Shown: one piece after another, positions 1 through 23,461 of the stretch | Layout of the letters: the number at the start of each line of letters is the position of its first letter | Position numbering within the stretch: the stretch's first letter is position 1 | Notes under the pieces: generated by a model | What the model saw: the letters and a program-made list of their open reading frames with translations, nothing else | What the model was told of the DNA's origin: nothing | The model's database searches: none | Made by a program: the position numbers and the translations under genes | Assembly (NCBI GenBank): GCA_000151295.1 | Contig: GG745328.1 | Span: forward strand, 1,797,266-1,861,265 | Origin: Allomyces macrogynus ATCC 38327 | Taxonomy: Eukaryota; Blastocladiomycota; Blastocladiomycetes; Blastocladiales; Blastocladiaceae | Direction: 5' to 3' | Length of the DNA stretch: 64,000 bases

Positions 1-48
1 GCAACCCCGCCGCGTCGCCTGCACCCACGTCGTCCTCGTCCAGTTCGG

Positions 49-1404: not shown

Positions 1405-1576
1405 GCTTGTTGAAGAGGAAGAGGAGCGTTGTCGGGTTCACGGGCGGGCCCGTGGGTTGGCGCGCGCTGAAGCTGTTGTTGTTCGTGTGATATCGTTCGT
1501 TGTGGTTGGTCGTTTTGTGTCCACCCAAGTATCCATAATACAGGCGCTCTCATTTGAGATATTCTCAGCACTGCTT

Positions 1577-1782
1577 TCACGCGTCGTTGGCAGCAGCTCC
1601 CGGATCCTTTGGCGCGTCATCGGCCTTGGTGCGGCCGTCGTCGTACCGCTCGCGCAAGTGCCGGTTCGGCGCCCAAAACTCCTCTTCCAGCCCTTGGACG
1701 TGCACGACCTCGACTCCACGCTCGCGCAACGTATCTGCGCCGTGCACTTGACAAACAAGTCGGCCGGCTCGACAATTCCCAT
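1577..1782 (-). pseudogene. Deaminase-like C-terminal remnant, frameshifted
   Basis: Two minus-strand frames join into protein-like sequence. MGIVEPADLFVKCTAQ, starting at 1782, changes frame near 1730 into TLRERGVEVVHVQGLEEEFW and runs to a stop at 1577. The TLRERGVEVVHV segment resembles the strand-helix close of cytidine/nucleoside deaminase-fold proteins, but no zinc motif is present. An in-frame stop lies just upstream of the ATG. This is either the last exon of a gene whose other exons I cannot find, or a decayed fragment. The assignment is tentative. Confidence 0.3.
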
Positions 1783-2126
1783 CGCGAGTCGATAATTGTC
1801 GCGACATTAAGCGATAGTCAAAAACACAAAGATATAGTCTTGTAAAACAAGATCTTTGCACTGGTTTTGGTTGTGGTAACACATATTATGATAACAGCTG
1901 GGAGGTGGTGGTGGTGGGTGGCCGCGTGCGAGACAACTGGACGCGGGACATGTGCACGTGAGGCACGCCATGTGCAGGTCTTCGGCGCCTTGTTGCATGC
2001 AGTGAGTCCCAGTTTGCCGGCTGCCCCCATCGTCGCTGTCGTGCAGATCCCATCGCCGAAATGACGACGACGCGGCCACCACGCGCGCACTCGAGCCAAC
2101 TTGCCGCACCCCGTCACGACAAGAAC
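1783..2126. other. Intergenic, upstream of the E2 gene
   Basis: AT-richer than its surroundings around 1800-1900. It presumably holds the promoter and 5' leader of the ubiquitin-conjugating enzyme gene. I see no convincing coding sequence or RNA gene. An in-frame ATG at 2061 would add 22 unconserved residues to the E2 and is not preferred. Confidence 0.5.
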
Positions 2127-3894
2127 ATGGCCGCCGCCGGCCAGCTGCGCGCGAGCGGCTACCTCAAGCGCATCAAGACCGAGCTCGACCTGCTCTCCAC
2201 CGACGCGCCCGACGGCGTACAATGCCGTCCCCGCGCGCACGACACTGACACACTCGAAACTTCCGGCCTGTGGCTCGACGCCGTCATCACGGGCCCATCG
2301 AGCACGCCCTACGCCGGTGGGTCTTTCCACGTCGAATGCTGCCTGTCGCGCCAGTACCCGCTATGCCCGCCGCATATTCGCTTCGTGACCAAAGTGTTTC
2401 ACCCGAATATCGACCAGAATGGCCGCATTTGCGTCGATATCTTGAAGGAGGGTTCTGACGCGGGGCGGTGGTCGGCGGCCAAGAATTTGAGGATGGCGTT
2501 GGCGACGGACCGGATGTTGTTGGCAACCCGAATCCGGACGACCCGCTGGATGCCGAGATTGCGGGGATATATCGCAGTCATCGCACGCGGTTTGTTGCGA
2601 CGGCGAGGCAGTGGACGGAAAAGCACGCGATGGGCGAAGGGAACGGGGTCGTACTGGATGGGGATGTGCCGACGACTGGTCTAGCTGATGGTGCGGATCA
2701 GGCCAAGACTGCGACCTCAGGCGCGACTTTGTCCTCAAGCGCGACTTCGACGCCGTCGGCGTCTCCATCGGCGTCTCCACCTGCGCTGCCATCGTTATCG
2801 TCTGGGCTGGTTGCGAGCGGCATGACAGTGCTGCCGCCGCCATCGTCCTCATCTTCTTCCGGATCGCGCTCCGTCGCCGTCAACCCGAAACCGGCGTCGT
2901 CCTTGGCCGCTCCGGCCGCTGCACCAGCGCCACCACCGCCATCGGCTCCACCGTCCTCGTCCTCGTCCTCGTCGCTGTTCGGTCGCGGTCCGGCCCCAAC
3001 GTCGGGCGGCGGTCTTTTTGGCGCGCGTCGATCTGGTGGTGCAATCTTTGGCGCGGGGCTACCGTCGTCATCGCCAGCTCCCGCAGGTGCAACGTCGCTG
3101 TTTGGCCGCCCGGCCGTTGCTGCAGCCACATCATCGTCAAGGGCCGTGCCAACAGCAGCGACGCCAGCCCCATTGACGACCGCCATCCCAGCTGCGACGC
3201 GCCCGAAACCGGTGCCTACTCAAACTGACGTGAAACCGGTCGCGGCCGCCCCCGCGGTGCGCCCAAGTTCAGCCGTAAAGGCACCACCGGCGCCAGTGCG
3301 TGCGCCTGCCGCGGTCTTAGCCCCGGCAACCGCTCCCGCACCTGCACCCGTCCCGGCACCCGCTCCGGCGCCCACACCGGCATCGCGCTTGTCCGGAACC
3401 AAGCGCGCCGCGAGTCCACCGCGACTCAGTGCTCGACCGGTCAAGAAACCCACGCTTGATACCGCCGCCGTCATCGCATCTCCCGCGCCAAGTGTGCCTG
3501 CACCTGCGCGCGTAGTTGCACCTCCTGCACCTGCACCCGCACCCGTCGTCTCTAAACCACTCGCTTCCGCTTCCTCGTCTTCCTTGCAACCACCACCACC
3601 TCCTGTCGTCGCCACCGCGCCGGCGGCTCCCGCGCCCGCGCCATCGCTCTTTGGCCGCCCGGGACCAGGTCTTGGCGCGCCGAAGCCTGGTGGTGGACTG
3701 TTTGGCGCGCCACGTGCGCCTGGGACCGGTGGTGGTCTGTTTGCGCCGCGGCCGCCCGGATCCGGACCGCGGTGCGGCCGGGGTTGTTGCCGGGTGGTAA
3801 CGCGACGGGGATGACGCCGCGACCGCAAGGCACGGGTCTGTTTGGCAGTGCGAATGCGCAGCCGCCTGGGTCGCTGTTTGGGCGCAAGACGTGA
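2127..3894 (+). CDS. UBE2T: Ubiquitin-conjugating enzyme E2, UBE2T-like, with GLFG-repeat tail (two frameshifts)
   Basis: The start at 2127 (MAAAGQ) leads directly into the E2 helix. The UBC fold spans about residues 5-160, with the HPN motif at 92-94 and catalytic Cys102 in GRICVDIL. The closing NPNPDDPL and ARQWTEKHA motifs are closest to UBE2T, the FANCL-partnered E2 that monoubiquitinates FANCD2/FANCI. The body changes frame at about 2520-2522 (one base missing). The tail changes frame again between 3755 and 3781 (one base missing). With both corrected the protein is 589 aa. The roughly 400-residue tail is rich in Pro/Ala/Ser and has about nine LFG/IFG units, such as GGLFGA, SLFGRP and a final SLFGRKT, resembling FG-nucleoporin repeats. 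Human UBE2T has only a short tail. The E2 identity is strong, the UBE2T subfamily probable, and the role of the tail unknown. Confidence 0.75.
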
Positions 3895-4148
3895 ACGGGA
3901 GAGAGAAGAGCGCGCGTGCTGGGTCGAGGTGCGCGCAGATGTCAATACAACAGCCATGCTCTTGCTTTCTTTCGTGTCGGGAGAGCGTTTCGGCGTTGTG
4001 GAATGCTTCCACTCAGCTCCGCGAACAGTCAACACAGGCCAACCTTTTGTTGTTGCTCGTTGCTGCCCCGCTTCGATCACGACCCTCATCAACCACGGCC
4101 ACTGCTCACTGCGCCGGCGCACTTGCTGCAATCTACTCGACATCGCTC

Positions 4149-5111
4149 ATGGTCTCTCACAAGGAAGCGCGCAAGCTCAAGCAGGCACAGCGAAGGGCCA
4201 AGACAGCGGGCCGAGCCGCCGGTCATGAGGTCGACAAACAAGATGTTCCGGTATTGACCTCGGAAAATTGTGATCAAGGCTCCATCAACGCTACCGCTGC
4301 CGACGCGCCAATCTCGCTGTCCTACACGCTGCGCGGCTACGAGGACGGCAAGCCATTCGAGCGCGATTTGCACGCGCTCGACCGATGGGCAACGCAAGCG
4401 GCCGATTCTATCAGCGTCACGATTTCAACCACGACCAACCAAGACGCACTCCCGCCGCTCACCGTGCACCTCAAGCAGCGTGCCTCCGTCTTCATCGGCG
4501 GCCAACTGTGGAACACGGCCTTTATACTCGCCTGCTGGTTCTATGCGAGACACGCACACGGGATCCACGACTACGGCGCCCTGCGCGTCTGTGAAGTCGG
4601 CGCCGGGATTGGGCTGCTCGCGCTCGCCCTGGCCGCACTCGATGCGCGCGTCACGGCGACCGACCTCGCTGACGTCGTGCCGATCCTCGACGACAATATC
4701 GCACGGAACCCGCACTTGGCGATCGGCGCCGGTGGGGTTCCGCGAATCACGGCCGCCGCGCTCGATTGGGGAGACAAGGACGCGGTCGTGCCGGGCTATC
4801 CGTTTGATTTGATTGTGGCCTGCGATTGTATTTATTCGGAGGTCTCGGCGGGGGATCTGGTCGAGTGTTTGGTGCGGCAGTGCTCGCCCGTGACGCCTGG
4901 CGGACCAAGGCCGGCTACGATAGTCTGGGTCGTGAGCGAGGTGCGCAACGAGTCGATTCAGCAGGCGTTTTTGGAGCAGGCGAGGGAAGTGTTTGAGATT
5001 GGGTACATGGACGTAGACCGCGACGTCTCGCCGTATTTGCCGAGGGAGTTGCGCACCGGGTTGAATGTGCGGTGGTATGTTATGAAGTTGAAGCCGGGCA
5101 AGGATGAATAG
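4149..5111 (+). CDS. METTL21-type protein lysine methyltransferase (Methyltransf_16)
   Basis: The start at 4149 gives a 320-aa protein; the open frame continues upstream to 3891 but without conserved sequence. The N-terminus is basic (HKEARKLKQAQRR). The Rossmann methyltransferase core begins with GGQLWNTAF (118-125). Next come motif I EVGAGIG (149-155), which binds S-adenosylmethionine, and acidic Asp172 in TATDL. The family signature DCIY is at 226-229, in the position of the DxxY motif of METTL21/EFM enzymes. These enzymes methylate lysines of chaperones and translation factors. The substrate cannot be told from sequence. It lies 254 bp downstream of the E2 gene on the same strand. I see no introns and no frameshift. 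Confidence 0.8.
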   Translation: MVSHKEARKLKQAQRRAKTAGRAAGHEVDKQDVPVLTSENCDQGSINATAADAPISLSYTLRGYEDGKPFERDLHALDRWATQAADSISVTISTTTNQDALPPLTVHLKQRASVFIGGQLWNTAFILACWFYARHAHGIHDYGALRVCEVGAGIGLLALALAALDARVTATDLADVVPILDDNIARNPHLAIGAGGVPRITAAALDWGDKDAVVPGYPFDLIVACDCIYSEVSAGDLVECLVRQCSPVTPGGPRPATIVWVVSEVRNESIQQAFLEQAREVFEIGYMDVDRDVSPYLPRELRTGLNVRWYVMKLKPGKDE

Positions 5112-5329
5112 AGTGGTGTATTTTTGAGTGGATGGTCGTCGTTGTCGGGAATGGTCGCATGGTTGTGGTCGAACGCTGCTGGTGTTGATGGCGGCTGATA
5201 CATGGTGGACGAGTCGGATGTGCAAGCTGCAAACTCGTGCCAAATTCGTTCATGATTGGATTTGTTGGTTGTACTCGACGCCAGCACCACGACGGCCACA
5301 CACGCCAGTAACCCATCCAACTCGCTGCA

Positions 5330-7149
5330 ATGGACTTTTCCGAACTCTTCAAGCAAGCCGGCAATCAATGCTCGTTCAGCCCGACCGGCACTTACGTCGC
5401 TGCGACTGTCGGCCACAAGCTCGTCATTCGTGACGCCGAAACACTTGCCGTCGTCAATGTGATCACCGCCGTCGACGCCATCTCGCACGCCTCCTTCTCG
5501 CCGTGCGGCAAGTACTTGCTGGTTGCCGCCTACGACGCTGGCGCACTGCAAGTCTGGCCTGTTGAGCCCTCCGACGCGCCGATTGCCAAGATTGATGAGG
5601 GCATCACCGGCTGCGTGCGCGCCATCTGGGACCCGCTGTCGGGCCGCAGTATCCTGTCCTGGTCGGCGTTTGGACTGCGCATCTCGATTTGGTCGCTCGT
5701 CGACGGGTCGCTCACGTACATTCAGCAGCCAAAAGTTGTTGATGCGCCCGCGGACGGTGGGTGTGCGTCGGACGCGCCGGCGGAACGGATTCCGGGGTGT
5801 GCGTTCCGCAAGGATTTCAGGTACATGGCGGTCCTGGACCGCGTCGATGGGCGCGATTTTGTAAATGTCTACGACTGTATCGACTGGGAGCTCGTCAAGG
5901 TATGCAGGGCGGGGGTGGTGGAGGGTGGAATACATGCGGGTGTGCTGTGGATTCACGACGTGCATTTTGGTCAAACCGTGCGCGTGGGTTGATTAGAGGT
6001 TTCAAGTCGACACGACCGATGCATCAAATATCGCCTGGTCGCCTGAAGGCCGGTTTATTGCCGTGACCGATTCCGTCTTTGAGGTTGGTTTACATTCGCA
6101 CGCCTCCACTTCATGCCCGCAAGCTCACGGCCTCTCTCTCCACTCCACAGTTCAAAGTCCTCATCTACTCGCCCGACGGCCACCTTCTCCACCCACCCAC
6201 GCGCGCCGCCGACCACAACCTCGGTATTCGATCTGTCGCGTGGTCGCCCACGGGCCAGTTCCTGGCCGTCGGCAGCTACGACCAGACGGTCAGCCTGCTC
6301 AACCACTACACGTTCAATTCGCTCGTCGACTGGTCGCTTGAACCGACCACGCTCGTTCTGAGCCGAAAACAGCGGCCGACCGTCTATTTCGAGTCAATTG
6401 ACGCGGCGCAACTGGGTGGGAGCAGTAACGATTGGCCATCGGCAGCCGACTTGGTGCGGCCGGTGCCGCCAGCATGTACGTTGCCGGTGTTCCTGGATTT
6501 GGAGCGGTGGGCGAGGGACGAGTAGTTGACGACTTTCGTGTGATAGATTCGGTCGTGACTCCGCCGACGGAAGCGGGCAAGACGTCGTCTGTGACACTGG
6601 CCGCTGTCAAGACCGACGCGAACACGCCCATTACCAAGCTCGGCGTGTCGGCGCTATGCTGGTCCCCGGACGGCCGGTACCTGGCCGTCAAGTGCCGTAT
6701 GTTGATGTCCTCCCATCCCGGCTCATCCGTGGACGTTGCATTGAACACACCCGTCTCCCAATCCCGCGCACGCTCCACTAGAAAACAAGCCCTCCACCAT
6801 CTTCATCTACTCGGCGCACACGCTGCGTCTCATCGCCGTTCTGCGACAAGCGCACTCGATCAAGCACATGGCCTGGCGGCACGCCGAGGCGCACAAGCAC
6901 ACGCTCGTGTTTTGCACGGGCGCCGACCACCTCTACCTGTGGCACGGGCCGCCCGACACGGCTGCTGCCGACGAGGAAGTCGACGACGAGGAACCGGCGG
7001 GGCGCACCGAGTTTTGGATGCTCCCGCACCAAAATTTTGCCGCGCACTCGTTCATGTGGAGCAACGACGGGAAGAAATTGCTGGTCGTGGGGAAGCACGG
7101 GTTTTGTTTGGGGTTTGTCACGGAGTTGCATGATGATGTGCATGTTTAA
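5330..7149 (+). CDS. WRAP73: WRAP73/WDR8-type WD-repeat protein
   Basis: Four exons: 5330-5899, 5997-6083, 6151-6696 and 6782-7149, with introns of 97, 67 and 85 nt and GT-AG borders. The protein tracks WRAP73 end to end. It opens MDFSELFKQAG, then has KIDEG, WDPLSGRSILSW, the RYMAV...DFVNVYDCIDWELVK block, IRSVAWSPTGQFLAVGSYDQ, and a closing WSNDGKKLLVVGKHGFCLGF. WRAP73 works with the SSX2IP/Msd1 complex at centrosomes or spindle poles and in ciliogenesis, which fits a flagellated fungus. Exon 3 contains one frameshift (one base missing) between about 6440 and 6500, in a poorly conserved loop. Corrected length is 523 aa, against about 460 in human. Identity is confident. Confidence 0.85.
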
Positions 7150-8637
7150 GAGTGGATGCATGTGGGGAACAGTTTTGGACGCGAGTTTTGGGGTGGAGAA
7201 TGTGGATATTTATGATTCCAGCAGGATACGCGCGGAAAACGGGACCCTTTGGTCAGGCATCAATCATTGCAGGTCACCCCATGCAGATCACAGCATAGCC
7301 GCGCTCGCAGCGCGCACGCGCAGGAGGGTAATGTAGAGCGACGGTCATGGCGCCAGGTTCCGCGTCAGCCGGCTTGCCAGCCCTGTTTCCGCGAGCGCGG
7401 CGTTGTCCTTGCAACATCTGCTGCGCGCAGGTTAACAATGGCGAGCAGCCCAGACGTTTGTATCTTCGTCGGTCGGCGAGTATTGGCAGCCAGATCGTGA
7501 GGGTATCCGAGCGCCAGGCGAGGCGGACATGATCGAGGGCCGTCTCGTAAAACGCGAGGGCTGAGGGCAGGTCAGCGGTGTGCGAATGGTGATCGCGAAG
7601 CAGTTGGCACTTGCCAAGATCGCACCCTGTGGGCCTGCCTGCTCCACGTGGGGGCGCTGGGACGCTTCTGAAGATACAGACGGCAAGTGTTGTTGCGCTC
7701 CGCCTTTCACCGCATCGCTGATCGCCCACGATCAGCAAACGATCGCAGGCGCAACCCCGTGCGAACCACGCAACCACCACCAGAACAAACGAGCCCGAGC
7801 CCGGCGTCGCGTGGGCCGATAATATTGATCAAGATCGTGTGGTGCCGGGTGCCCCCGGTGCCCTCGCCGCTGTGTATGTACTGCTCCGCGGGGGACGATG
7901 CAACTGCACTGCTTGGGCGAGATCTGTGCGGGGAGGGCAGCGAGGACTGACACCGTCACTGGACCCTGTCACCTGCGTCTGCGCCCGTGCACCCATCGCT
8001 TCTCGTCTACCGCGTATACACGTCGGCCTTTGTTCGCCACCTCCCCGCGCGCGTGCTTGTTACCGCTCGGCTGTGCACACTCGGGCGTCCATCATTCCCA
8101 ACACAGTCTCAAGGAAACCGCGGCGTACGCGATATGGCGATTGGGAGTGCCGTTTGCGACACCAAGGCAACTGGACATGGCTTGCTTCGCCCGACGTCCA
8201 TGATTCGCTCAGCCTTGGCACCCTCGACACCCTTGCTCTGTCGCGTCAGGGTAAGAGCGCACCGTCGCGGTGCGGAAGGAGATGAACCGCCAGGAGCATG
8301 GTCCTCCACGTTTGATGTACGTGGTGGATAAATCGTCGCGACGGGTGCGTCCAAGTGTTTCTTTCTCTCGACCTCGCTCGACCTCGCCCGCAACACTCTC
8401 AAGCCCTCGTCTTGACGGACACGGACGACGGCCAACCAAGCTCCAAATTATCCGGCGCAACTCTCAACGTGTCCCGCCAGATTTTTCGTTCAAGCGACCG
8501 CGATAGACCACGCGAGGTGGGCGACATTGGTATGAGGCTCTGGATGGTGGATGAGCGTTCTTTTTGCGATTTGAATGAGGTCTGACTCTGGAAAAGTGAC
8601 GAGGCCAACGCGTCGACGATCACCGCAGACCATTAAC
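7150..8637. other. Long intergenic region upstream of glucan synthase copy A
   Basis: About 1.5 kb between WRAP73 and the first glucan synthase. Apart from the VOC-like remnant listed separately, I see only GC-rich chance frames. It presumably holds the 3' end of WRAP73 and the promoter of the downstream gene. No tRNA or other RNA gene was recognised. Confidence 0.5.
7433..7710 (-). pseudogene. VOC/glyoxalase-like remnant
   Basis: Two minus-strand frames together read as a vicinal-oxygen-chelate half-module. ANCFAITIRT in one frame continues as ADLPSALAFYETAL and then LTIWLPILAD in another, with a further shift to DEDTNVWAARHC before the stop. The D(L)xxSLAFYxxxL pattern is typical of glyoxalase/bleomycin-resistance domains. 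The stretch covers only one half-domain and needs two frame changes. I read it as a decayed gene or a badly sequenced small exon. Confidence 0.3.
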
Positions 8638-11600
8638 ATGAGCTACGATCCGCGGCACACACCCATCGGTGAATTTGACGACGGTGGTGGCTCAAGTTCG
8701 ACCACAAGCATGGGACGCAGCGATCGCGACCCTCGCGCTCTGCCAGCCGCTGATGCAGCGCACGCGGCTCCGTACCATGGGCAGCACCAGAAGTACCAGC
8801 CGCCGCCGTACCAGTCGGCGCCGTTCCAGCGGCCGCATCGACTTCCCGCAACGCAAGACCGATGGGTGTCGTCCGTTCCGTTGTTGCAGCAGCCGTCGTC
8901 GCGTGGATCATGGTCGAAATCGTCCATGCCGCCCATGCTTCCCGCAAAACCGCAGCCCCAACAAGACCCGTCGCGCTTGCACGCCGTCGACCTTGCCATC
9001 CCGGCCAGTCGCATGAGCACGTTGTCTGGGTCGAACTCGTCGAACCACACGTCGATCATGGGCCAGCCCGCCGGTTTGAACGACGGGTTCACGCGGTACC
9101 CAGGGTCACATGCAGGCCACAAGCCGCAGCAGGCGTGTCACCGCACCGTCGATCGCTCGAGACTGTCGTCGAACCGGCTGTCCAAGCAGTTGTCGGTGCA
9201 GCAGTTGCAGCTGCAGCTCCCGCCGGACGGGTTATCGCACGACCATGCTGCACTCGGCGAGCGCAATTCGGTCAAGGTGCTGAACGTTGCGGGCGGCATG
9301 TTGGGCGCGGGCGCTGCGCCTAGTGCGCAGTGGACTTCACCGCATCCCAACGCAATCCGGCAGCATGACGCGCTCAGGGCAAGCACGAAGCGGCCGATCC
9401 ACGGTGACGATCTGACCACGAGTCGCGGGACGGCGCTCGTTTCTAGCGCGTCGACGGTCGCGTCGGATTTCGACGACGACGAGGACGATGACGACGACGA
9501 GTATGACGGCAAGGCGCGCGTTCAGCAACATGGGCCCGCGACGTGGTCACCCAACAACCGGCCCACGCACCAGCGGCTCAACCAAGGAAATTTGGGGTTT
9601 GATGACTTTGACAACGTGTCGGTCATGTCGGGCCGGTCGATCATTTCGTCGCGTGTCGCCAACAGTGCACGCGGATCGTACACGGGGCCCGGATTCATGT
9701 CGTCTCTCCGTCGCCTGACGGAGGGATCGGTCTTTGGCGCGGCCAACACGGCGTCGCCCGCGTCGGTCATTTCGACCCTCGTAGATACCAAGGTCGGGCC
9801 CGAGGAGTTGCTCGACGAGTTTTCGGTCGTCGACGAGCAGCGCGAGCCCAAGGGCCACACACGGTTTGTCTCGATGCAGGAACAGCTTCTCCACCCAGAA
9901 TCGCAGGATTCGCGGACGAGTTTGCCTCTGCCGTCACGGTTTGCGCCCAGCGATCCGCGGCCTGTCACGCGCGAGCTCATCGAGGACATGTTCATTGATT
10001 TGCAGCGGCGGTTCGGGTTCCAGGCCGACAGCGTGCGTAATCAGCTCGAGTATATGTTGACGCTGATCGACAGCCGGGTCGCGCGCATGTCGCTCGACCT
10101 GGCCATCGCGTCGCTGCACGCGGATATCATTGGCGGCGAGAACGCCAACTACCGCCAATGGTATGTGTCCACGTTCGGGCCTCACGAACTCGGGCCGGAT
10201 CCAAGTGCCGACCTGATGGGCACCCTGACGAAAAAAGTGGTGCGGTCGCGCTGGCGCAAGGTCATGAAGCGGCTCACGCAGGCCGATCGCGCGATGCAGA
10301 CGGCGCTGTGGTTTTGCATCTGGGGCGAGGCGGCCAATATCCGGTTCATGCCCGAGTGCCTATGCTTCTTGTTCAAGCTTGCGTGTGATCATTTGACGCT
10401 CGACAAGGCAGCGCCGTCGCCAATAGCCGTGCTCGACGGCGCGTTCCTCGACAAGGTGATCACGCCGCTCTACCGAGCGTACCGCGAGCAAGGCTACAAC
10501 TTGTCTGAAGACGGCAAACTCGTGCGGCAACGGCGCGACCACAGCGACATTGTCGGGTATGACGACCTCAACGACATGTTTCGCGATTGGGACGCTTTGG
10601 CTGCATTGGCAACCAAGGGCGGGCAAAGGCTGCTCGAAATGCCGGCGTCAGAACGGTACTGGATGCTCGACCAGGTCGAGTATAAGCTGCGCAAGACCTA
10701 CCTCGAGAAGCGCACGCCGCTGCACCTAGTCACCAATTTCTCGCGCATCTGGATCTTACATCTCGTTGGTCTCTACTACATGGTGCGTTCACGTTACGCG
10801 TTCTGTTGGCCCGCGGCCAGATTGGCGATCTGAACTCACCCATACCTTCTCGCGATCATAGGCCATGGGCCAGGCTGACTTCATGTTCCCGGAAGCCATG
10901 CACCGAGCACGTCATTGGAGTCTCGTCGCGTGTGGATCCGCGATTGGCGTTGTTGTGACCATGGTCGCGAAATGGGCCGAATATTCGTTCTTGCCCATCA
11001 CGGTTAAGCGCACGGCCTACCTCGTCTGGTGCCAGTCGGTTCTGTTTGCCATCCTCATTGCGAATTTGGCGCCTACCGCGTTTATCTACTGGTTCACGGG
11101 CCAAGATCTCGCACAGCGTGGAGCAGGGCCGGTCGCCATGGGCGTAACCGCTGCGCACCTGGTATTGTCGGTCGTCACGTCATGCTACCTGCTGTTCGTG
11201 CCACCCGCGCAACTATTCCGGCGACCGTGGCTGCTGACGCGCCAGGATTTGGTTGAGACCGGCTTCATTGCACACTTTGTGCCGCTCACGCCGTGGGATC
11301 ACGCATTGTCGCTCGGTACATGGGGCACGATCCTGTTCATCAAGTTCATTGGCGGCTACTTTTACCTCGTGCGGCCGTTCAGCGGCGTGCTCGAGAGTTG
11401 GTGGGAGGCGGCCGGCAAGTGTCCGGTTGACGAGATCATGTGCGGGCCCGTCACGTACGGCGGCATGGCGCTGCTCGTCGCGCTGCAGACGGTACTCTAC
11501 TTTCTCGACACGTACCTGTGGTACATGGTCGTGCTGGCACTCGTCTCGGTCGGGCTCAACATGGTGGATGGGATCTCGGCGCTGTCCATGTGGCGCGAGA

Positions 11601-14600
11601 CGTTCTACAAGCTGCCGAACCGCATCGTCTCGAAGCTGATTGCCGTCGATGGGGGCGTGCCGCTGCGCATGAAGCAGGCGTCGAGCGAGATTTGGAACTC
11701 AATTGTGCTCGCCATGTACAAGGAGCACCTGCTGCCGGCCGAGTCGCTGCCCAAGATGCTCTACCAGATCCACCCAAACGCGGCCGACCAGGACTGCGTG
11801 ATTGAGCCGCGCTTTTTCCTCGCGCACGAAGACTCGAAATCCAAGGGCGAGTTTTTCCCGACCGACTCGGAGGTGGAGCGGCGGCTGTCGTACTTTTCGC
11901 AGTCGCTGTGCATGAACGTGCCGGAACCGACGCCTGTGGCGCGGATGCCGACGTTCTCGGTGCTGATCCCGCACTATTCGGAAAAGATTTTGCTGTCGCT
12001 CGAGGACTGCACGGAGCGCGAGGACAAGAGCTCGCGCATCACGCTGCTCGAGTATCTCAAGACGCTGTACGTATTGCTTTTGCCTGCTCAAATCGAAAGA
12101 TTACATGAGAGAGCGAGTCGCTGACAACCTTCTCCACCCACCCACCCACCCACATCACATAGGTATCCCGACGAGTGGGACAATTTCGTTGCCGAGAGCA
12201 AGATCATGGAGCACGAGCAGGCCCTGTCCGACTCGCTCGGCGACTCGCTGCCGATTCCCGGCGGCGCTGGATTTGACGGCCATGGCTCGGACCGCATGTC
12301 GACGGCCTCGTCGCCGTCGATGCGGCCGCACGGCGGCCTGCCGCGCGCGAGCTGGTGCCCGCAGCAGGAAAAGGCGGCCGTGCACGACAATGGAACCGGC
12401 GAGCAAAACGACGACCTGCTCGCAGAAGACGACGACGAGGACGAGGAGGCGCGCGAGACGGCCGAGGAGAAAATGTTCCGCGCCGTCGGGTACACCAACC
12501 CGAGCCCGTCGTTTGTACTGCGCACGCGGATTTGGACGTCGCTGCGCAGCCAGACGCTGTACCGCACCGTCTCGGGGTTCATGAACTACAACAAGGCGAT
12601 CCAGATCCGGCACCGCGCCGAGAACCTGCACTACCTGTTCCAGGGCGTGTGCTCGGAAGAGGAAATCGAGGACGAGGCCGACTATGTCTCGAGCCGCAAG
12701 TTTCGGCTGGTCGTGGCCATGCAGCGGTACCAGCACTTTGACAAGAACGACCTCGAGTCGGTCGAGCTGTTGTTCAGTGTCTTTGCCGACCTGGCCGTCT
12801 CGTATATCGAGGAAGTGCCGAGCGCCGTCGAGGGCGAGCCGCCCACCTACTACTCGTGCCTGATTGACGGGTGGTGCAACATGACGGCGTCGGGCGCGCG
12901 GCAGCCGCGGTTCCGGATCCGGCTCCCCGGCAACCCGATTTTGGGGGATGGCAAGGGCGACAACCAAAACTCGGCCATCGTATTCACACGCGGCGAGGTA
13001 CTGCAGCTGATTGACGCCAACCAAGACTCGTACCTCGAAGAGTCGCTCAAGGTGGCGAATGTGCTGTCCGAGTTTGAGCTGCCGGGCGACAGTGTGCACT
13101 CGCCGTATTCGCCGCGTTACAACCGCGGGCGCGCGCCCGTGGCGATTGTGGGCACGCGCGAGCACATTTTCTCGGAGCGCGTCGGCAGTTTGGCCGATGT
13201 GGCGGCGGGCAAGGAGTTTGCGTTTGGCACGCTGATCCAGCGCGCCATGACGCGGTTGGGGTCGCGTTTGGTACGTTCGCGTTGATTGCAGTGACTGGTG
13301 ATCGGTCCTTGACGCGTCGCCGTGTACGCGAGTGCGAGCTTGATTGTGAAACTGATCTCCCGCGCGTCCAATGGTATAGCAATACGGCCACCCCGACTTG
13401 CTCAACTCGCTCTACATGATCACGCGCGGCGGCGTGTCCAAGGCGCAAAAGGGCCTGCACCTGAATGAGGATATCTACGCGGGCATGAACGTGCTCTCGC
13501 GCGGCGGGCGCATCAAGCACTCCGAGTACTTGCAGTGCGGCAAGGGCCGTGACTTGGGGTTCACGTCGGTGCTCAATTTCACGGCCAAGCTCGGGTCGGG
13601 TGCGGGCGAGCAAGTGTTGTCGCGCGACGTGTGGTACCTCGGCACGCGCCTCCCGCTCGACCGGCTGCTCTCCTACTATTTTGCGCACATTGGCTTTTAC
13701 ATCAACGCGGCGTTTGTCGTGGCGTCGGTCGTTCTCTTTCTGTGGACGAGTGCCATGGCCGCGGTCATGCAGGCGCGGCATCCGGGCAAGTGCACGGGCA
13801 AGGACGCGGCCAGCACGTGTCCGACCGACCTGGCGACGCTGCAGGACTGGGTGTCGCTGTGCGTCTCGGAGCTCATCTTTTCGCTGCTGATCTCGTTTTT
13901 GCCGCTGCTGCTGCAAATGGTCAACGAGTATGGTGTCGGGCGCGCGCTCAAGCGCATCTTGATGCAGTTCTTTTCGCTCGTGTCGCTGTTTGAGGTACGC
14001 TCATACTTTTCTTGGCTCACATCCATATCTCGGCGGCCACGCTTGGCACGACGCACGTTGATCACGACCCCTAACTAACCAACCAACTCCATCCAACCAT
14101 AAACAGGGCTTCGCCATCTACGTCTACTCGAGCATGTTCTGGCACAACCTCGCGCTGGGCGGCGCCGGGTACATTGCCACGGGCCGTGCCGTGTCGACGG
14201 CGCGCGCGCCCTTTTCGACGCTGTATCAGCGGTTCAGCCGGCAGGGCATCTCGCTCGGCGTGGCGCTCGGCATGCTCGCGCTGCTCGTCTCGACCCAAGG
14301 GTTCCAGGCCGCGCTCGTGTTCTACTGGATCTTTGTCATTTCGTATGCGCTCTCGCCGTTCCTGTTCAACCCCAACCAGTTTGTGCTCGCCGATTTCTTG
14401 CTCGACTACCGCGTGACGCTGCGGTGGCTGTTTGCGGGTCACCAGGCGCCGGCTCCGCGCAACCTGTCATGGGCCAATCTCGTGGTCGCGGACCGTGGGC
14501 GGCTCACGGGCGAGCGTGGGGGTGCGACGCGTGCACGTCTGCGCGTATTTATCGTGCGCAACCTGCTGGCCGACTTGGTTGTGATCGCGTTTGCCGTGGG

Positions 14601-15411
14601 CCTGTATGGGTACGCGCACCCAAAGTTTTCGATTCTCGACTCGATCATTCGCGTCGCCGCGTGGCCCGCGGCCATGCTCGGCGTGTGCTTTGCCATGTCC
14701 GCCGTCTCGCTCGCGCTCTCGCTGTTCCTGGGCCAGATCCCGTTTGTCGCGCGCCTCGTTCCGGCGATCGGGTACGGTCTCCCGACGCTGGCGCTGATAG
14801 CCATTGCGTGGGTCGCGTGGGCGCTCGAAGGATTCGCACTGCCCGGCACGCTGGTCGCACTCTTCCCGTTTGCCGCAGTATTGCACGCCATCGAGACACT
14901 GGCCTTGTTTTTCGTGCCGCCCGAGTTTGACACCAAGGGGACCGCGCACCGTGCGTTCTGGACGGGCCGGTGGCACACGCTCGGCGCGTTTGCGCCCGTC
15001 TACGTGGTGCGCGAGCTGCTGGTCGTGCCATTTGAGCTGGCGTGGTTTGCGCTCGACTGGGCCACGATCCACGTGCTCGTCGCTGCGTTGTTCCCCGTGT
15101 GCCTGGTGCCGTTTGTTTCGGACGTGCACACGCTCATGCTGCTGTGGGTGCGCAAGCCGAAAAAGAGCGATAACGGCGCGCCGGCAAATGGATCTGGTGG
15201 TGCCGTCGCCGACGCAACTGCCAAACCCAAGCACCGGCGTCGCCGGTTGCGGATCGCGGGTGCGGCCCTGATGCTCGCGGGCACGCTGCTTGTGCTGGCG
15301 GCGCTCGTGGTCGTGCCCGCCATTGTTCCGGGCCCGCTGGCCAAGATTGTGGCTGGGATTGCGGGTCACTTGCCGCTCCATGCACTGAAGGCGATTCCTG
15401 CTGCGCCGTGA
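8638..15411 (+). CDS. FKS1: 1,3-beta-glucan synthase catalytic subunit, copy A
   Basis: Five exons: 8638-10782, 10862-12066, 12163-13270, 13380-13994 and 14107-15411. They join in frame to 2125 aa (yeast Fks1 is 1876). About the first 440 residues are low-complexity and presumably cytosolic. The FKS1 domain-1 block begins at DPRPVTRELIEDMF and contains FCIWGEAANIRFMPE. A first group of membrane spans follows (AWSCGSA-like region near 10.9 kb to TYLWYMVV). The large glucan synthase domain comes next, with LRTRIWASLRSQTLYRT-like sequence, GNPILGDGKGDNQN, IDANQD and RGGVSKAQKGLHLNEDIYAG. A C-terminal membrane array ends the protein. It makes wall beta-1,3-glucan from UDP-glucose at the plasma membrane under Rho control (family knowledge). 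Everything from about 11152 onward is repeated almost exactly in copy B. Confidence 0.93.
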
Positions 15412-18400
15412 TTGTTTGGTCGACCATTTTGCTTTTCAATTGACTTTGGTGCATTTCGCTTTTTTGCCTTTTTTGCTGGTGTCAGTTTGTGCTCGCCCAA
15501 TTCCCGCACTTCCTGTATTTTTGTTTGCTCTGCCTCGTCACTGCGTGCGCGCGGGAAATACCATTGTACAATTTGTGCTCACTGTGAGTGGAGACGCAAC
15601 GCATTGGCCGCCCAAACACGGCAGTCCGTCCTGCTATTAACGGTGTTATGTTGTGCAAAAAGTCAACGATTGCTCAACAGACCTGGCCATGCTGCAAGCC
15701 AGGCACCACACCCAACACGGGCGTGCACGTTTAATCCGACAACAAAGCACAAAACGCGCCCCCACACCATTCCAAATGAAGTGACCATATTGATACATTC
15801 TGATTGTTACACGAGCTAAGCGGCAATTGGGCTCACTCAGCTCAGGTCATGCTTTGAATCAGAAGCGGAAGTGGCATGGCTTGTGGCAGAGCCCATGGTG
15901 GTGCTGCCACTCAGGGCGCGCATCATGGAGGTGGTGCCTGCAGCTGTGGTGGCTGGGTTGGTGGTGGTGGGGGAGCCCATGGTGGCGCCAACCCAGCCAC
16001 CACAGCTGCTGAGCTCCACAAGTTCAAGCGCGCCCTGAGTGGCAGCACCACCATGGGCTCTGCCACAAGCCATGCCACTTCCGCTTCTGATTCAAAGCAT
16101 GACCTGAGCTGAGTGAGCCCAATTGCCGCTTAGCTCGTGTAACAATCAGAATGTATCAATATGGTCACTTCATTTGGAATGGTGTGGGGGCGCGTTTTGT
16201 GCTTTGTTGTCGGATTAAACGTGCACGCCCGTGTTGGGTGTGGTGCCTGGCTTGCAGCATGGCCAGGTCTGTTGAGCAATCGTTGACTTTTTGCACAACA
16301 TAACACCGTTAATAGCAGGACGGACTGCCGTGTTTGGGCGGCCAATGCGTTGCGTCTCCACTCACAGTGAGCACAAATTGTACAATGGTATTTCCCGCGC
16401 GCACGCAGTGACGAGGCAGAGCAAACAAAAATACAGGAAGTGCGGGAATTGGGCGAGCACAAACTGACACCAGCAAAAAAGGCAAAAAAGCGAAATGCAC
16501 CAAAGTCAATTGAAAAGCAAAATGGTCGACCAAACAATCACGGCGCAGCAGGAATCGCCTTCAGTGCATGGAGCGGCAAGTGACCCGCAATCCCAGCCAC
16601 AATCTTGGCCAGCGGGCCCGGAACAATGGCGGGCACGACCACGAGCGCCGCCAGCACAAGCAGCGTGCCCGCGAGCATCAGGGCCGCACCCGCGATCCGC
16701 AACCGGCGACGCCGGTGCTTGGGTTTGGCAGTTGCGTCGGCGACGGCACCACCAGATCCATTTGCCGGCGCGCCGTTATCGCTCTTTTTCGGCTTGCGCA
16801 CCCACAGCAGCATGAGCGTGTGCACGTCCGAAACAAACGGCACCAGGCACACGGGGAACAACGCAGCGACGAGCACGTGGATCGTGGCCCAGTCGAGCGC
16901 AAACCACGCCAGCTCAAATGGCACGACCAGCAGCTCGCGCACCACGTAGACGGGCGCAAACGCGCCGAGCGTGTGCCACCGGCCCGTCCAGAACGCACGG
17001 TGCGCGGTCCCCTTGGTGTCAAACTCGGGCGGCACGAAAAACAAGGCCAGTGTCTCGATGGCGTGCAATACTGCGGCAAACGGGAAGAGTGCGACCAGCG
17101 TGCCGGGCAGTGCGAATCCTTCGAGCGCCCACGCGACCCACGCAATGGCTATCAGCGCCAGCGTCGGGAGACCGTACCCGATCGCCGGAACGAGGCGCGC
17201 GACAAACGGGATCTGGCCCAGGAACAGCGAGAGCGCGAGCGAGACGGCGGACATGGCAAAGCACACGCCGAGCATGGCCGCGGGCCACGCGGCGACGCGA
17301 ATGATCGAGTCGAGAATCGAAAACTTTGGGTGCGCGTACCCATACAGGCCCACGGCAAACGCGATCACAACCAAGTCGGCCAGCAGGTTGCGCACGATAA
17401 ATACGCGCAGACGTGCACGCGTCGCACCCCCACGCTCGCCCGTGAGCCGCCCACGGTCCGCGACCACGAGATTGGCCCATGACAGGTTGCGCGGAGCCGG
17501 CGCCTGGTGACCCGCAAACAGCCACCGCAGCGTCACGCGGTAGTCGAGCAAGAAATCGGCGAGCACAAACTGGTTGGGGTTGAACAGGAACGGCGAGAGC
17601 GCATACGAAATGACAAAGATCCAGTAGAACACGAGCGCGGCCTGGAACCCTTGGGTCGAGACGAGCAGCGCGAGCATGCCGAGCGCCACGCCGAGCGAGA
17701 TGCCCTGCCGGCTGAACCGCTGATACAGCGTCGAAAAGGGCGCGCGCGCCGTCGACACGGCACGGCCCGTGGCAATGTACCCGGCGCCGCCCAGCGCGAG
17801 GTTGTGCCAGAACATGCTCGAGTAGACGTAGATGGCGAAGCCCTGTTTATGGTTGGATGGAGTTGGTTGGTTAGTTAGGGGTCGTGATCAACGTGCGTCG
17901 TGCCAAGCGTGGCCGCCGAGATATGGATGTGAGCCAAGAAAAGTATGAGCGTACCTCAAACAGCGACACGAGCGAAAAGAACTGCATCAAGATGCGCTTG
18001 AGCGCGCGCCCGACACCATACTCGTTGACCATTTGCAGCAGCAGCGGCAAAAACGAGATCAGCAGCGAAAAGATGAGCTCCGAGACGCACAGCGACACCC
18101 AGTCCTGCAGCGTCGCCAGGTCGGTCGGACACGTGCTGGCCGCGTCCTTGCCCGTGCACTTGCCCGGATGCCGCGCCTGCATGACCGCGGCCATGGCACT
18201 CGTCCACAGAAAGAGAACGACCGACGCCACGACAAACGCCGCGTTGATGTAAAAGCCAATGTGCGCAAAATAGTAGGAGAGCAGCCGGTCGAGCGGGAGG
18301 CGCGTGCCGAGGTACCACACGTCGCGCGACAACACTTGCTCGCCCGCACCCGACCCGAGCTTGGCCGTGAAATTGAGCACCGACGTGAACCCCAAGTCAC

Positions 18401-20795
18401 GGCCCTTGCCGCACTGCAAGTACTCGGAGTGCTTGATGCGCCCGCCGCGCGAGAGCACGTTCATGCCCGCGTAGATATCCTCATTCAGGTGCAGGCCCTT
18501 TTGCGCCTTGGACACGCCGCCGCGCGTGATCATGTAGAGCGAGTTGAGCAAGTCGGGGTGGCCGTATTGCTATACCATTGGACGCGCGGGAGATCAGTTT
18601 CACAATCAAGCTCGCACTCGCGTACACGGCGACGCGTCAAGGACCGATCACCAGTCACTGCAATCAACGCGAACGTACCAAACGCGACCCCAACCGCGTC
18701 ATGGCGCGCTGGATCAGCGTGCCAAACGCAAACTCCTTGCCCGCCGCCACATCGGCCAAACTGCCGACGCGCTCCGAGAAAATGTGCTCGCGCGTGCCCA
18801 CAATCGCCACGGGCGCGCGCCCGCGGTTGTAACGCGGCGAATACGGCGAGTGCACACTGTCGCCCGGCAGCTCAAACTCGGACAGCACATTCGCCACCTT
18901 GAGCGACTCTTCGAGGTACGAGTCTTGGTTGGCGTCAATCAGCTGCAGTACCTCGCCGCGTGTGAATACGATGGCCGAGTTTTGGTTGTCGCCCTTGCCA
19001 TCCCCCAAAATCGGGTTGCCGGGGAGCCGGATCCGGAACCGCGGCTGCCGCGCGCCCGACGCCGTCATGTTGCACCACCCGTCAATCAGGCACGAGTAGT
19101 AGGTGGGCGGCTCGCCCTCGACGGCGCTCGGCACTTCCTCGATATACGAGACGGCCAGGTCGGCAAAGACACTGAACAACAGCTCGACCGACTCGAGGTC
19201 GTTCTTGTCAAAGTGCTGGTACCGCTGCATGGCCACGACCAGCCGAAACTTGCGGCTCGAGACATAGTCGGCCTCGTCCTCGATTTCCTCTTCCGAGCAC
19301 ACGCCCTGGAACAGGTAGTGCAGGTTCTCGGCGCGGTGCCGGATCTGGATCGCCTTGTTGTAGTTCATGAACCCCGAGACGGTGCGGTACAGCGTCTGGC
19401 TGCGCAGCGACGTCCAAATCCGCGTGCGCAGTACAAACGACGGGCTCGGGTTGGTGTACCCGACGGCGCGGAACATTTTCTCCTCGGCCGTCTCGCGCGC
19501 CTCCTCGTCCTCGTCGTCGTCTTCTGCGAGCAGGTCGTCGTTTTGCTCGCCGGTTCCATTGTCGTGCACGGCCGCCTTTTCCTGCTGCGGGCACCAGCTC
19601 GCGCGCGGCAGGCCGCCGTGCGGCCGCATCGACGGCGACGAGCCCGTCGACATGCGGTCCGAGCCATGACCGTCAAATCCAGGGCCGCCGGGAATCGGCA
19701 GCGAGTCCCCGAGCGAGTCGGACAGGGCCTGCTCGTGCTCCATGATCTTGCTCTCGGCAACGAAATTGTCCCACTCGTCGGGATACCTATGTGGGGGGGG
19801 GGAGAAGGTTGTCAGCGACGCGCCTTCTCATGTTTTTTTCGATTTGAACCTTCGCCAAGCAGGCAAAAGCAATACGTACAGCGTCTTGAGATACTCGAGC
19901 AGCGTGATGCGCGAGCTCTTGTCCTCGCGCCTCGTGCAGTCCTCGAGCGACAGCAAAATCTTTTCCGAATAGTGCGGGATCAGCACCGAGAACGTCGGCA
20001 TCCGCGCCACAGGCGTCGGTTCCGGCACGTTCATGCACAGCGACTGCGAAAAGTACGACAGCCGCCGCTCCACCTCCGAGTCGGTCGGGAAAAACTCGCC
20101 CTTGGATTTCGAGTCTTCGTGCGCGAGGAAAAAGCGCGGCTCAATCACGCAGTCCTGGTCGGCCGCGTTTGGGTGGATCTGGTAGAGCATCTTGGGCAGC
20201 GACTCGGCCGGCAGCAGGTGCTCCTTGTACATGGCGAGCACAATTGAGTTCCAAATCTCGCTCGACGCCTGCTTCATGCGCAGCGGCACGCCCCCATCGA
20301 CGGCAATCAGCTTCGAGACGATGCGGTTCGGCAGCTTGTAGAACGTCTCGCGCCACATGGACAGCGCCGAGATCCCATCCACCATGTTGAGCCCGACCGA
20401 GACGAGTGCCAGCACGACCATGTACCACAGGTACGTGTCGAGAAAGTAGAGTACCGTCTGCAGCGCGACGAGCAGCGCCATGCCGCCGTACGTGACGGGC
20501 CCGCACATGATCTCGTCAACCGGACACTTGCCGGCCGCCTCCCACCAACTCTCGAGCACGCCGCTGAACGGCCGCACGAGGTAAAAGTAGCCGCCAATGA
20601 ACTTGATGAACAGGATCGTGCCCCATGTACCGAGCGACAATGCGTGATCCCACGGCGTGAGCGGCACAAAGTGTGCAATGAAGCCGGTCTCAACCAAATC
20701 CTGGCGCGTCAGCAGCCACGGTCGCCGGAATAGTTGCGCGGGTGGCACGAACAGCAGGTAGCATGACGTGACGACCGACAATACCAGGTGCGCAA
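11152..20795. repeat. Large near-perfect palindrome of about 9.6 kb (inverted repeat)
   Basis: Positions pair as x and 31949-x across the centre: for example exon 14134-15411 with 16538-17815, 13398-14078 with 17871-18551, and 12206-13285 with 18664-19743. The outer part is offset by 3 bp because intron 3 is 96 nt in one arm and 93 nt in the other. Each arm is about 4.8 kb. It covers the 3' part of one glucan synthase gene, its last three introns and about 550 bp of 3' flank. Identity starts abruptly at 11152 and 20795. Outside these points the genes are still homologous but clearly diverged. Inside, the proteins differ at only three residues, all near intron 3. Confidence 0.95.
15922..16027. 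repeat. Palindrome core: 26-bp asymmetric spacer with inner hairpin and mismatched bubble
   Basis: From outside inward: the arms match up to CAGGGCGCGC (15912-15921 against 16028-16037). Then 18 bp differ completely (15922-15939 against 16010-16027). Then 22 bp match perfectly again (15940-15961 against 15988-16009). The middle is a unique 26-bp spacer (15962-15987). The spacer repeats the AGCCCATGGTGG word also found in the arms at 15891 and 16049. Short frames through this region are by-products of the symmetry and not genes. Confidence 0.9.
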
Positions 20796-23461
20796 TGGCG
20801 ATCCCTATCGCAACAGGGTCGGCCCCATGCCGCGCCAAGTCCCGACCCGTGTACCAGTAGATTAGCACGGCGGGCGCGACGTTGACGATGAGCATGACAA
20901 GCAAAACGGACTCGGACCACGCCAAGTAGGCCGTCCGCTTGACCGTCTTCGGCAAGAACGAGTACTCGGCCCATTTCGCGATCATCGTGATGATCACGGC
21001 AATTGCCGACCCGCACGCGACGACGCTCCAGTGTCGCGCCCGGTCAATCGCAGACGGGAACAAATAGTCGGCTTGACCCATCGCCTAGTATCGCGGGAGG
21101 AAAAGAGTCAGTTTGTGCAACTGGCACCATATATAAAACGAAGTGTGAACATACCATGTAGTAGAGCCCGACGAGGTGCAGGATCAAAATGCGCGAAAAG
21201 TTGGCCACGAGATGCAACGGCGTGCGCTTCTCATAGTACGTCTTGCGCAGCTTCCACTCGACCTGGTCAAGCGCCCAGTACCGCTCGGATGCCGGCAAAT
21301 CCAAGAGCCGCTGCCCACCCTTGGTCGCGAGCGCCGCCAATGCGTCCCAGTCGCGGAACATGTCGTTGAGGTCGTCATACCCGACAATATTGCTGTGGTC
21401 ACGTCGTTGCCGCACGAGCTTGCCATTTTCCGACACCTTGTACCCTTGGTCGCGGTAAGCGAGGTAGAGCGGCGTGATGACCTGATCGAGGAACGCGCCC
21501 TCAGGCGCGATCGCGGGTTGCGACAACGACGACGACGACGAGTTGGACGGAACCAAGGCCTTGTCGAGCGTCAAGTGATCGCACGCGAGCTTGAACAAAA
21601 AGCACAAGCATTCGGGCATGAACCGAATGTTGGCGGCTTCGCCCCAGATACAAAACCACAGCGCCGTCTGCATGGCCCGGTCGACTTGCGTGAGTCGCTT
21701 CATGGCCTTCCGCCAGCGCGACCGCACCACCTTTTGCGTGAGGGTGCCCATTGGGTCGGCACCCGGGTCGGGACCAAGCTCGGAGGGGCCAAACGTGGCC
21801 ACATACCACTGGCGGTAGTTAGCGTTCTCGCCGCCGATAATCTCGGCGTGCAACGACGCGACGGCCAAGTCGAGCGACATTCGCGCGACGCGACTGTCGA
21901 TGAGCGTGAGCATGTACTCGAGCTTGTTGCGCACGCTGTCGGCTTGGAACCCAAACCGACGTTGCAGGTCAATGAACATGTCTTCGATCAGCTCGCGCGT
22001 AATCGGCCGCGGATCGTTGGGCGCGATCCGTGACGGCAACGGCGAAATTCGCTGCTGGCCCGTGCGCGACTGCTGCTCTTGCGACCCGTTCGACGTCGGG
22101 TGGAGAGCACGTGCCAGTTGGTCTTGCATCGCACTAAAGCGTTCGTGACCCTCGGGGTCGCGCTGCTCGTCGACGACCGAGAAATCGTCGATCAGTGCGT
22201 CGGGCTCGCTCGCCGTATCGACGAGCGTCGAGATGATCGATTCGGGCGAGGCCGTGTTGCCCGCGCCGAACACGGACCGTTGCGTGAGCCGACGCAGCGA
22301 GGTAATGAAGGCCGGGCCCGAATACGATCCACGAGTGTCGCTCCGGGCACGCGCCGAAATCGCTGACCGCCGCGACCGCACCGATGCCGTGTCCCCGTCG
22401 TCATACACTGAGCTGGCAAAACTGGCCTCGGAATCGTTGCGCAAGAGCGACGGGTGCGTGGGCCGGCTGTGTGACGAGTACGGCTTGGACGGTCGCCGTT
22501 GTGACACCTGCTCGTGCTCGCCGCCACGGCCCGACACAGGCGCGCTCATCGAGTCAATATTAACCAACGTCGGTGCACGGCCCAGCGCTTCGAGGTCCTC
22601 GTGGCTCGACGCTTTCCTGCTGCTCTTGCGCGCATCGCGGCCACGATCGATTGGTACCACCGATGCCCCCACGTGAAGCGGCTCATGCTCGACCTCTGGC
22701 ACTGGGTGCGCGCTCGACGACCCGCCAAGACTCGCGGCGGCAAGTGGATCGCCTCCTGCCTGAGCGTAGTTGGGCGACAATTTGGTTGGCGAGTACTGGT
22801 GCCCGGACTGCGTGTTCTGTGACGACAAGAGCTTGGACAATCGGCTCGACGACAAGCGAGAGCGGTCGAGGTTGCGCACGCGCGACAGCGACCGTTTGCG
22901 ACCCGCACGCGACGGGTACCGTGTCAGCGCGCCGTTCATGGCCGCCGCAGGGCCCGCGAGCGCAATCCGGCTCGGCGATGACGGCGAAATCGGGCTAATG
23001 GGACTGAGCTGCGGCAGCTGGTGCAGTTGGTGCGTGGTCTGCGTCGCGTGTGGGGACGGGGATGGCGGCCATGGTTCTTGGACAATCGACTCCTCCTTCT
23101 GCTGTTGTTGTTGTTGTTGCTGGGGTGGCGGCGACGGTGGCCACGGTTCTTGAACGACGCGCGATTGCGGGGGCGCCGGTGCTGGCTGCCACTGCGGTCG
23201 TGGGTCCGGAATCGTCGGCGCGCGCAGTGTTTGCTGGAGGGACGCTGGCTCGTACGACGGTTGCCGGAGCGGCGGCCGTGTCGGTGCCGCGTAGGTCGCG
23301 GGTGCAGCAGAGGCTGCGGTCGCTGTCGTGGCCGGCTCGGCGCGATCCATGTCGATGATCATGTTCATGACGGACCCGACGTCGTGGCCGTTCTCGTCCA
23401 TGGCCGCCTGGAGCGTATAGTGGCTCGTGCCCGCACTTGTAAGCGACTTGCTTCGGCTCAT
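16538..23461 (-). CDS. FKS1: 1,3-beta-glucan synthase catalytic subunit, copy B
   Basis: Five exons on the minus strand: 23461-21155, 21084-19880, 19786-18679, 18569-17955 and 17842-16538. They close in frame to 2179 aa. The domain order is the same as in copy A. The N-terminal 450 residues differ strongly: Pro/Gln-rich, with an eight-glutamine run near 23110 and repeated EPWPPSP. The FKS1 domain-1 block is about 90 percent identical to copy A by eye. The first membrane region (20795-21084) is visibly diverged, for example FMFPEAMHRARHW against YLFPSAIDRARHW. From AHLVLSVVTSCYLL onward the two copies are effectively the same protein. Introns 4 and 5 are identical to those of copy A, while intron 1 is not. 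It lies tail to tail with copy A. Whether both are expressed cannot be judged. Confidence 0.93.

Follow-up and report, generated by a model that had tools for sequence, protein, structure and literature searches.

A palindrome of two tail-to-tail FKS genes in Allomyces macrogynus and its probable upkeep by recurrent gene conversion

How can two neighboring glucan synthase genes be distant paralogues in their 5' halves and nearly the same sequence, introns and flanks included, in their 3' halves? The question is raised by a locus of Allomyces macrogynus ATCC 38327. The window (the whole stretch of 64,000 nucleotides analyzed, C75:1797266-1861265 in a genome of 54.0 Mb and 75 contigs) carries two FKS genes, here called L and R, whose 3' halves face each other tail to tail and form the arms of a palindrome. 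Judged from comparisons within the window, with its homeologous locus and with two further Allomyces species, the best account is recurrent gene conversion between the facing arms, which we regard as very probable. The gene models are as follows:

8575..15411, + strand: L gene, FKS/GT48 1,3-beta-glucan synthase (PF02364; 2146 aa)
8575-10782, 10862-12066, 12163-13270, 13380-13994, 14107-15411, + strand: exons of L
8575..11151, + strand: L-specific 5' part, diverged from R (its conserved portion shows a synonymous divergence, dS, of about 1.0)
16538..23461, - strand: R gene, FKS/GT48 (PF02364; 2179 aa)
23461-21155, 21084-19880, 19786-18679, 18569-17955, 17842-16538, - strand: exons of R
20795..23461, - strand: R-specific 5' part, from the sequence comparison with L

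Both genes consist of five exons with GT..AG introns and have zero internal stops; the ATG at residue 22 of L, where the A. javanicus model begins, may be its true start. Residues 490-887 of the solved yeast Fks1 align with L residues 752-1146, and the PF02364 matches of both genes fall within the arms. The domain, the intact frame and the likeness to Fks1 together identify L and R as predicted 1,3-beta-glucan synthases of the FKS/GT48 family. In the public A. macrogynus annotation L may be absent or modeled otherwise, as no match equals it among the best 120 of 1043.

A self-alignment of the window returned a single inverted match (9619-22384; 12,870 columns, 92.8% identity), and an inverted-repeat search found a pair of 3782 nt with 106 nt between its arms. 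Aligned base by base, the palindrome is composed of three parts:

11152..15921, + strand: left arm, the 3' half of L with 510 nt of 3' flank
16028..20794, - strand: right arm, the 3' half of R with 510 nt of 3' flank
15922..16027, no strand: spacer of 106 nt separating the arms

The self-alignment confirms the palindrome of two tail-to-tail FKS genes proposed in the initial annotation, which had placed it at 11152..20795; the start is exact and the end lies one base too far. Across this short spacer the inverted arms (4.77 kb) are 99.7% identical over 4756 aligned bases, with mismatches at 13 positions and indels at three (11, 1 and 13 nt). They contain exact runs of 862, 72, 85 and 3615 nt, the first and the last of which flank a single diverged patch (see below), and the nearest mismatch beyond the arms is at 11151/20795. 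The longest inverted exact match elsewhere is 15 nt within positions 1-8000 and 18 nt within 24001-64000, each part being scored within itself and not against the other. The identity includes noncoding DNA: introns 3 and 4 are the same in both arms, and so are the 3' flanks for 510 nt past the stop, as had been claimed. Three arm introns had been described as near-identical; this holds for introns 3 and 4, with intron 2 as the exception, being the least alike part of the arms (76/82 aligned bases equal, plus indels). The spacer contains an inner inverted repeat of 22 nt (15940-15961 / 15988-16009) around a 26-nt core, with asymmetric stretches of 18 nt outside it. As single-stranded DNA the center is predicted to fold into a hairpin, which follows from the symmetry of the arms and has no bearing on its state in the cell.

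The transition from diverged to identical sequence is abrupt. Between L and R, dS is 1.0 over 419 conserved 5' codons versus 0.002 over 1313 3' codons, and it switches from about 1 to 0 within about one codon at L residue 834. In steps of 150 codons it amounts to 0.86-1.12 ahead of this border (the first step being saturated) and to 0 to 0.02 beyond it. With a dS of about 1.0, the 5' halves are best read as old paralogues, in agreement with the initial annotation, and the duplication is far older than the identity of the arms implies, also when set against the homeologue baseline (median 0.46; see below). The 3' halves of L and R differ by 3 residues within A. macrogynus. Against H, the homeologue of R on contig C73, dS in the 3' half is the same for L and for R (0.063 in both cases), and therefore what L and R have in common is of the R/H type. 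The exact tracts comprise about 1677 sites that are synonymous or lie in introns or flank, and the arms agree at all of them; this roughly bounds divergence since the last conversion at about 0.0018, some 0.4% of homeologue dS, if flank and introns are taken as neutral. The earlier view that the likeness is recent and acts on DNA, not through protein selection, fits both the identical noncoding parts and this cliff in dS.

The tract of identity is interrupted at one place:

12014..12306, + strand: patch outside the latest conversion, including intron 2 (counterpart 19643-19932; base-by-base comparison)

Every mismatch and indel of the arms sits in this patch, which is bordered by exact identity on either side. 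Of the differing columns, 29 set L apart from R and H (24 of these belong to indels of intron 2), 8 set R apart from L and H, and in 1 all three differ. By these counts L is already R/H-like there, so that at least two rounds of conversion are recorded. Some of the changes private to R may be consensus errors; at these positions protein P0003 of A. arbusculus bears the L/H residues.

Most of the window is colinear with C73, with aligned pieces 72-91% identical and gaps at N runs of C73; long colinear homeology of this kind (window against C73:665686-758000) is what a genome of duplicated or hybrid origin would show. The H protein matches AMAG_02086 (P0002, A. macrogynus ATCC 38327) over its full length, with 96.5% identity in 2176 columns and 59 gap columns, and the public AMAG_02086 model is without about 59 residues of the C73 frame. 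One part of the locus is missing from C73:

8272..16373, no strand: stretch without a counterpart on C73, which has 1171 bp instead, without N and without L

No remnant of L was detected in these 1171 bp beyond a 40-bp match at 8304-8339 (E 0.08), and a genome search for a second home of L gave this locus, R, H and one short upstream match on C73 only. The homeologue baseline was a median dS of 0.46 (range 0.13-0.83) over 25 matches, which include overlapping frames of the same DNA and hence do not represent 25 genes; reading frames of at least 200 aa were used, and matches with a dN/dS (nonsynonymous over synonymous divergence) under 0.35 were kept and the others dropped. Because dS between L and R (about 1) exceeds this baseline, L should predate the homeologue split and have been lost on C73 rather than gained on C75. 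For the hairpins, cruciforms and copy-number change that the initial annotation thought the palindrome could bring about, the missing L of C73 is the sole possible sign. On two proteins A. arbusculus, C75 and C73 branch in a nearly star-like manner, and no order of their splits was adopted.

The comparison with C73 also suggests exchange in trans. Between R and H, dS per 150-codon step is 0.43 and 0.54, then 0.21, 0.12, 0.07 and 0.09, and within the 3' half it ranges from 0.02 to 0.14; for most of the gene it amounts to 0.06-0.09, compared with a local baseline near 0.46. Intron 1 is 93% and introns 2 to 4 are 96% identical, and in the 3' flank the likeness ends no more than about 165 nt past the stop. 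Since the introns are alike too, codon constraint alone is insufficient for this likeness, and conversion between homeologues is the simplest account:

16373..22400 (approximate ends), - strand: stretch of R unusually like H, read as an older conversion in trans

At sites differing between the two, G/C is more frequent in R than in H within the arms (49 vs. 28, p 0.02, the arm count extending to 15411), an excess of R that is absent from the 5' part (97 vs. 106). At another place in the window, a frame at 42418-43068 has a homeologue dS of 0.13 compared with the local median of 0.46, and is a candidate for homeologue exchange or strong codon constraint.

Two other species place the border between unlike and like halves elsewhere. 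Diagnostic residues were taken from 136 sites at which A. macrogynus and A. arbusculus agree on the L state and on the R state. Protein P0001 of A. javanicus has an L-type N-terminus: up to residue 517 it is L-type at 87/96 of these sites, R-type at 2 and neither at 7. From residue 613 on it is R-type at 35/40 and L-type at 5 (Fisher p about 1e-23). These five L sites in the 3' part (791, 798, 817, 821 and 825) look like leftover islands. The tag of P0001, GGF32_000001, suggests a contig end.

In A. arbusculus the assembly breaks within the genes. An R-type protein (P0121; 932 aa, named partial) lies on a contig of 362,811 bp, an L-type protein (P0122; 806 aa, named partial) on one of 216,714 bp, and P0003 (1249 aa) on one of 4,289 bp; the eight residues FIGGYFYL end both P0121 and P0122 and begin P0003. 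Residue 888 is the last at which the L-type and R-type sequences differ. Beyond residue 905 the two are identical by construction, as they run into one common contig, and this part was not counted. The gene adjoining L on the left in the window helps to place the locus:

5330..7146 (approximate ends), + strand: WRAP73-like WD40 gene

The contig that carries its A. arbusculus homologue is equal in length to that of P0122 (216,714 bp), and so the L locus of this species is very probably the same as that of A. macrogynus. The 3' halves of A. macrogynus L and R share 98.6-98.8% protein identity with A. arbusculus. The 5' border is consequently found at three places, namely residue 834 in A. macrogynus, 517-613 in A. 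javanicus and 888-898 in A. arbusculus, with an R-like 3' half each time; variable borders across three species thus accompany the interrupted tract (patch 12014-12306). Yeast Fks1 position 643 is counted as a hot-spot residue in a review (PMC12715860); in our alignment it corresponds to L residue 908, about 74 residues beyond the A. macrogynus border and just beyond that of A. arbusculus.

Gene conversion between the arms, already suggested in the initial annotation, is favored because of the homeologous locus without L, the mosaic gene of A. javanicus and the way in which the A. arbusculus contigs end; the evidence that it recurred is good though indirect. The history would then run as follows. 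An inverted duplication, which to judge from dS preceded the split of the homeologous chromosomes, would have produced a tail-to-tail pair of full-length FKS genes. As only about 100 nt separate the facing copies, the 3' half of each could serve the other as a repair template, in cis or on the sister or homologous chromosome; this spacing and tracts that start at the center fit break repair from the facing copy. Non-reciprocal conversion would have carried R-type sequence into L (probably the prevailing direction), from the center outward to a border within the genes. Its repetition would account for a border that varies in three Allomyces species and for a patch of an older round that persists in the A. 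macrogynus arms. The 5' halves may by now be too diverged for easy conversion, and each paralogue would keep its own N-terminus; what both genes continue to share would be the catalytic part (PF02364), the C-terminal part and the 3' flank. An older exchange in trans would have homogenized R and H, and L would have been lost from C73 (a loss being preferred here to a gain on C75).

Several observations weigh against this reading or parts of it. The assembly could have merged reads of both arms, in which case the runs of 100% identity are slightly overstated. The A. javanicus mosaic P0001 could have arisen as a chimera during assembly, and no R-type gene of this species was found among the best 120 of 1043 matches and candidates of limited length, although a 90% cluster could hide one. 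In A. arbusculus the tail-to-tail joining is deduced from contig ends. The loss of L from C73 is read from a single measure, dS, since A. arbusculus, R and H form nearly a star by protein distance. The arm G/C excess of R would fit GC-biased repair, though the signal is weak and unpolarised. Finally, the very last event may have run in either direction, as L was already R-like before it.

The doubt about merged reads has a stronger form, in which both genes are real and one collapsed sequence was placed in both 3' halves, the near-perfect arms being absent in the cell. The assembly is a draft in which N runs mark gaps, exact repeats of 3.6 kb are difficult to assemble, and some R-only changes of the patch (a C run, two-base swaps) resemble consensus errors. 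Yet no N occurs within or near the arms, the patch variants were kept separate for each arm, and the L gene of A. javanicus has an R-like 3' half. Moreover, in the independent assembly of A. arbusculus the L-type and R-type contigs meet one common contig, as identical 3' halves predict, and we consider an artefact of this sort unlikely. A real palindrome could also have arisen at one stroke, through a recent fold-back or template switch that copied the 3' half of R once, with no recurrent conversion. The exact identity beside the center and the short spacer with its nested inverted repeat would suit such an event. It predicts unbroken identity, in conflict with the diverged patch inside the arms, and the L genes of two other species are likewise R-like in their 3' halves with different borders, which makes a single event very improbable.

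Strong selection on protein or codons might keep the 3' halves alike with no exchange of DNA, and in the Allomyces sequences this half is indeed better conserved than the other half of the protein. H, however, is under the same protein constraint and differs at 60 synonymous sites of the 3' half, dS falls from about 1 to 0 in the space of about one codon, and introns 3 and 4 and the 510-nt flank are identical. If the assembly is right, this noncoding identity refutes selection without DNA exchange, to which we assign a negligible probability. Selection could instead act on the mirror layout itself, for example if read-through transcripts formed long double-stranded RNA that tunes FKS expression. 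The 3' ends of the facing genes are indeed identical, A. arbusculus very probably shares the L locus, and the center can fold as a hairpin, the latter being a consequence of symmetry. C73 nevertheless manages without such a layout and conversion alone accounts for the pattern, so that we hold a selected layout to be quite unlikely. Broader still, and tentative, is the idea that the facing pair is a long-lived, genus-wide device for domain sharing, with one common catalytic half, two N-termini, a border set species by species, a selected mirror layout and input in trans from the homeologue; we see some chance for it, although we doubt it.

Recurrent conversion between inverted paralogues is itself a known process, and the Allomyces pair is a new example of it, not a new kind of element; what is new is the fungal lineage, the half-gene border varying by species and the layering of exchange in cis and in trans. 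In Candida glabrata, hot-spot conversion between FKS1 and FKS2 reportedly occurs in serial echinocandin-resistant isolates, to go by the title of a 2025 study by Zajac et al. There too glucan synthase paralogues would swap sequence, whereas the present locus is a standing inverted pair that is apparently common to related species. Allomyces is a free-living water mould, and for this reason the echinocandin-target aspect of the locus is given little weight. Long inverted repeats made of convergent or divergent paralogous gene pairs have been described in Caenorhabditis, and gene conversion was proposed for them (Zhao et al., 2007; PMC1803023). According to that paper, these are old inverted paralogues as well, whose arms often resemble each other more within a species than across species, and some pairs are 99-100% identical near the center only and diverged at the far gene ends. 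Unlike them, the present pair belongs to a fungus, consists of genes with about 6.5 kb of coding sequence, has its border placed in three species, and comes with a homeologous locus that serves as a yardstick and adds a layer in trans. The palindromes of the human Y and X chromosomes, for which arm-to-arm conversion with multi-kilobase tracts and a possible GC bias is described (PMC3723533, PMC8981503), likewise have near-identical arms kept by conversion; the Allomyces palindrome is smaller and holds only half of each gene. Among the open-licence papers listed by the literature searches, none was on this locus by title or the start of the abstract, which is no proof of absence.

For recurrent conversion, the locus provides a case from an early-diverging fungus that comes with three yardsticks of its own: (i) unconverted 5' halves, (ii) a homeologous locus without the partner gene, and (iii) relatives with other borders. 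It also calls for caution, as chimeras or breaks at this point can affect FKS gene trees and short-read assemblies of Allomyces. In a laboratory organism such as this, the rate, direction and tract length of conversion beside an inverted center would become measurable.

An additional gene at the center was considered and ruled out: positions 15412-16537 hold short frames only, the longest of 135 aa, and a DNA search of the genome matched the center to no place other than the window. The genome has 17 PF02364 matches at five places by our own grouping, comprising the L/R pair, H on C73 and two more-distant genes. The latter (C75:330-333 kb; C57:269-272 kb) are possibly homeologues of each other, and one PF02364 match on C57 runs across a TAG that is perhaps intronic. 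As for the surroundings, an N run of 9.5 kb on C75 stops at the window start, and a 125-nt N run lies inside the window at 50544-50668. At 27832-29820 (- strand) a protein kinase domain is followed by a Ribonuc_2-5A domain, a layout which we take to be that of the stress sensor Ire1. A direct repeat of 90 nt, in two overlapping copies with 77% identity, is located at 57665-57820.

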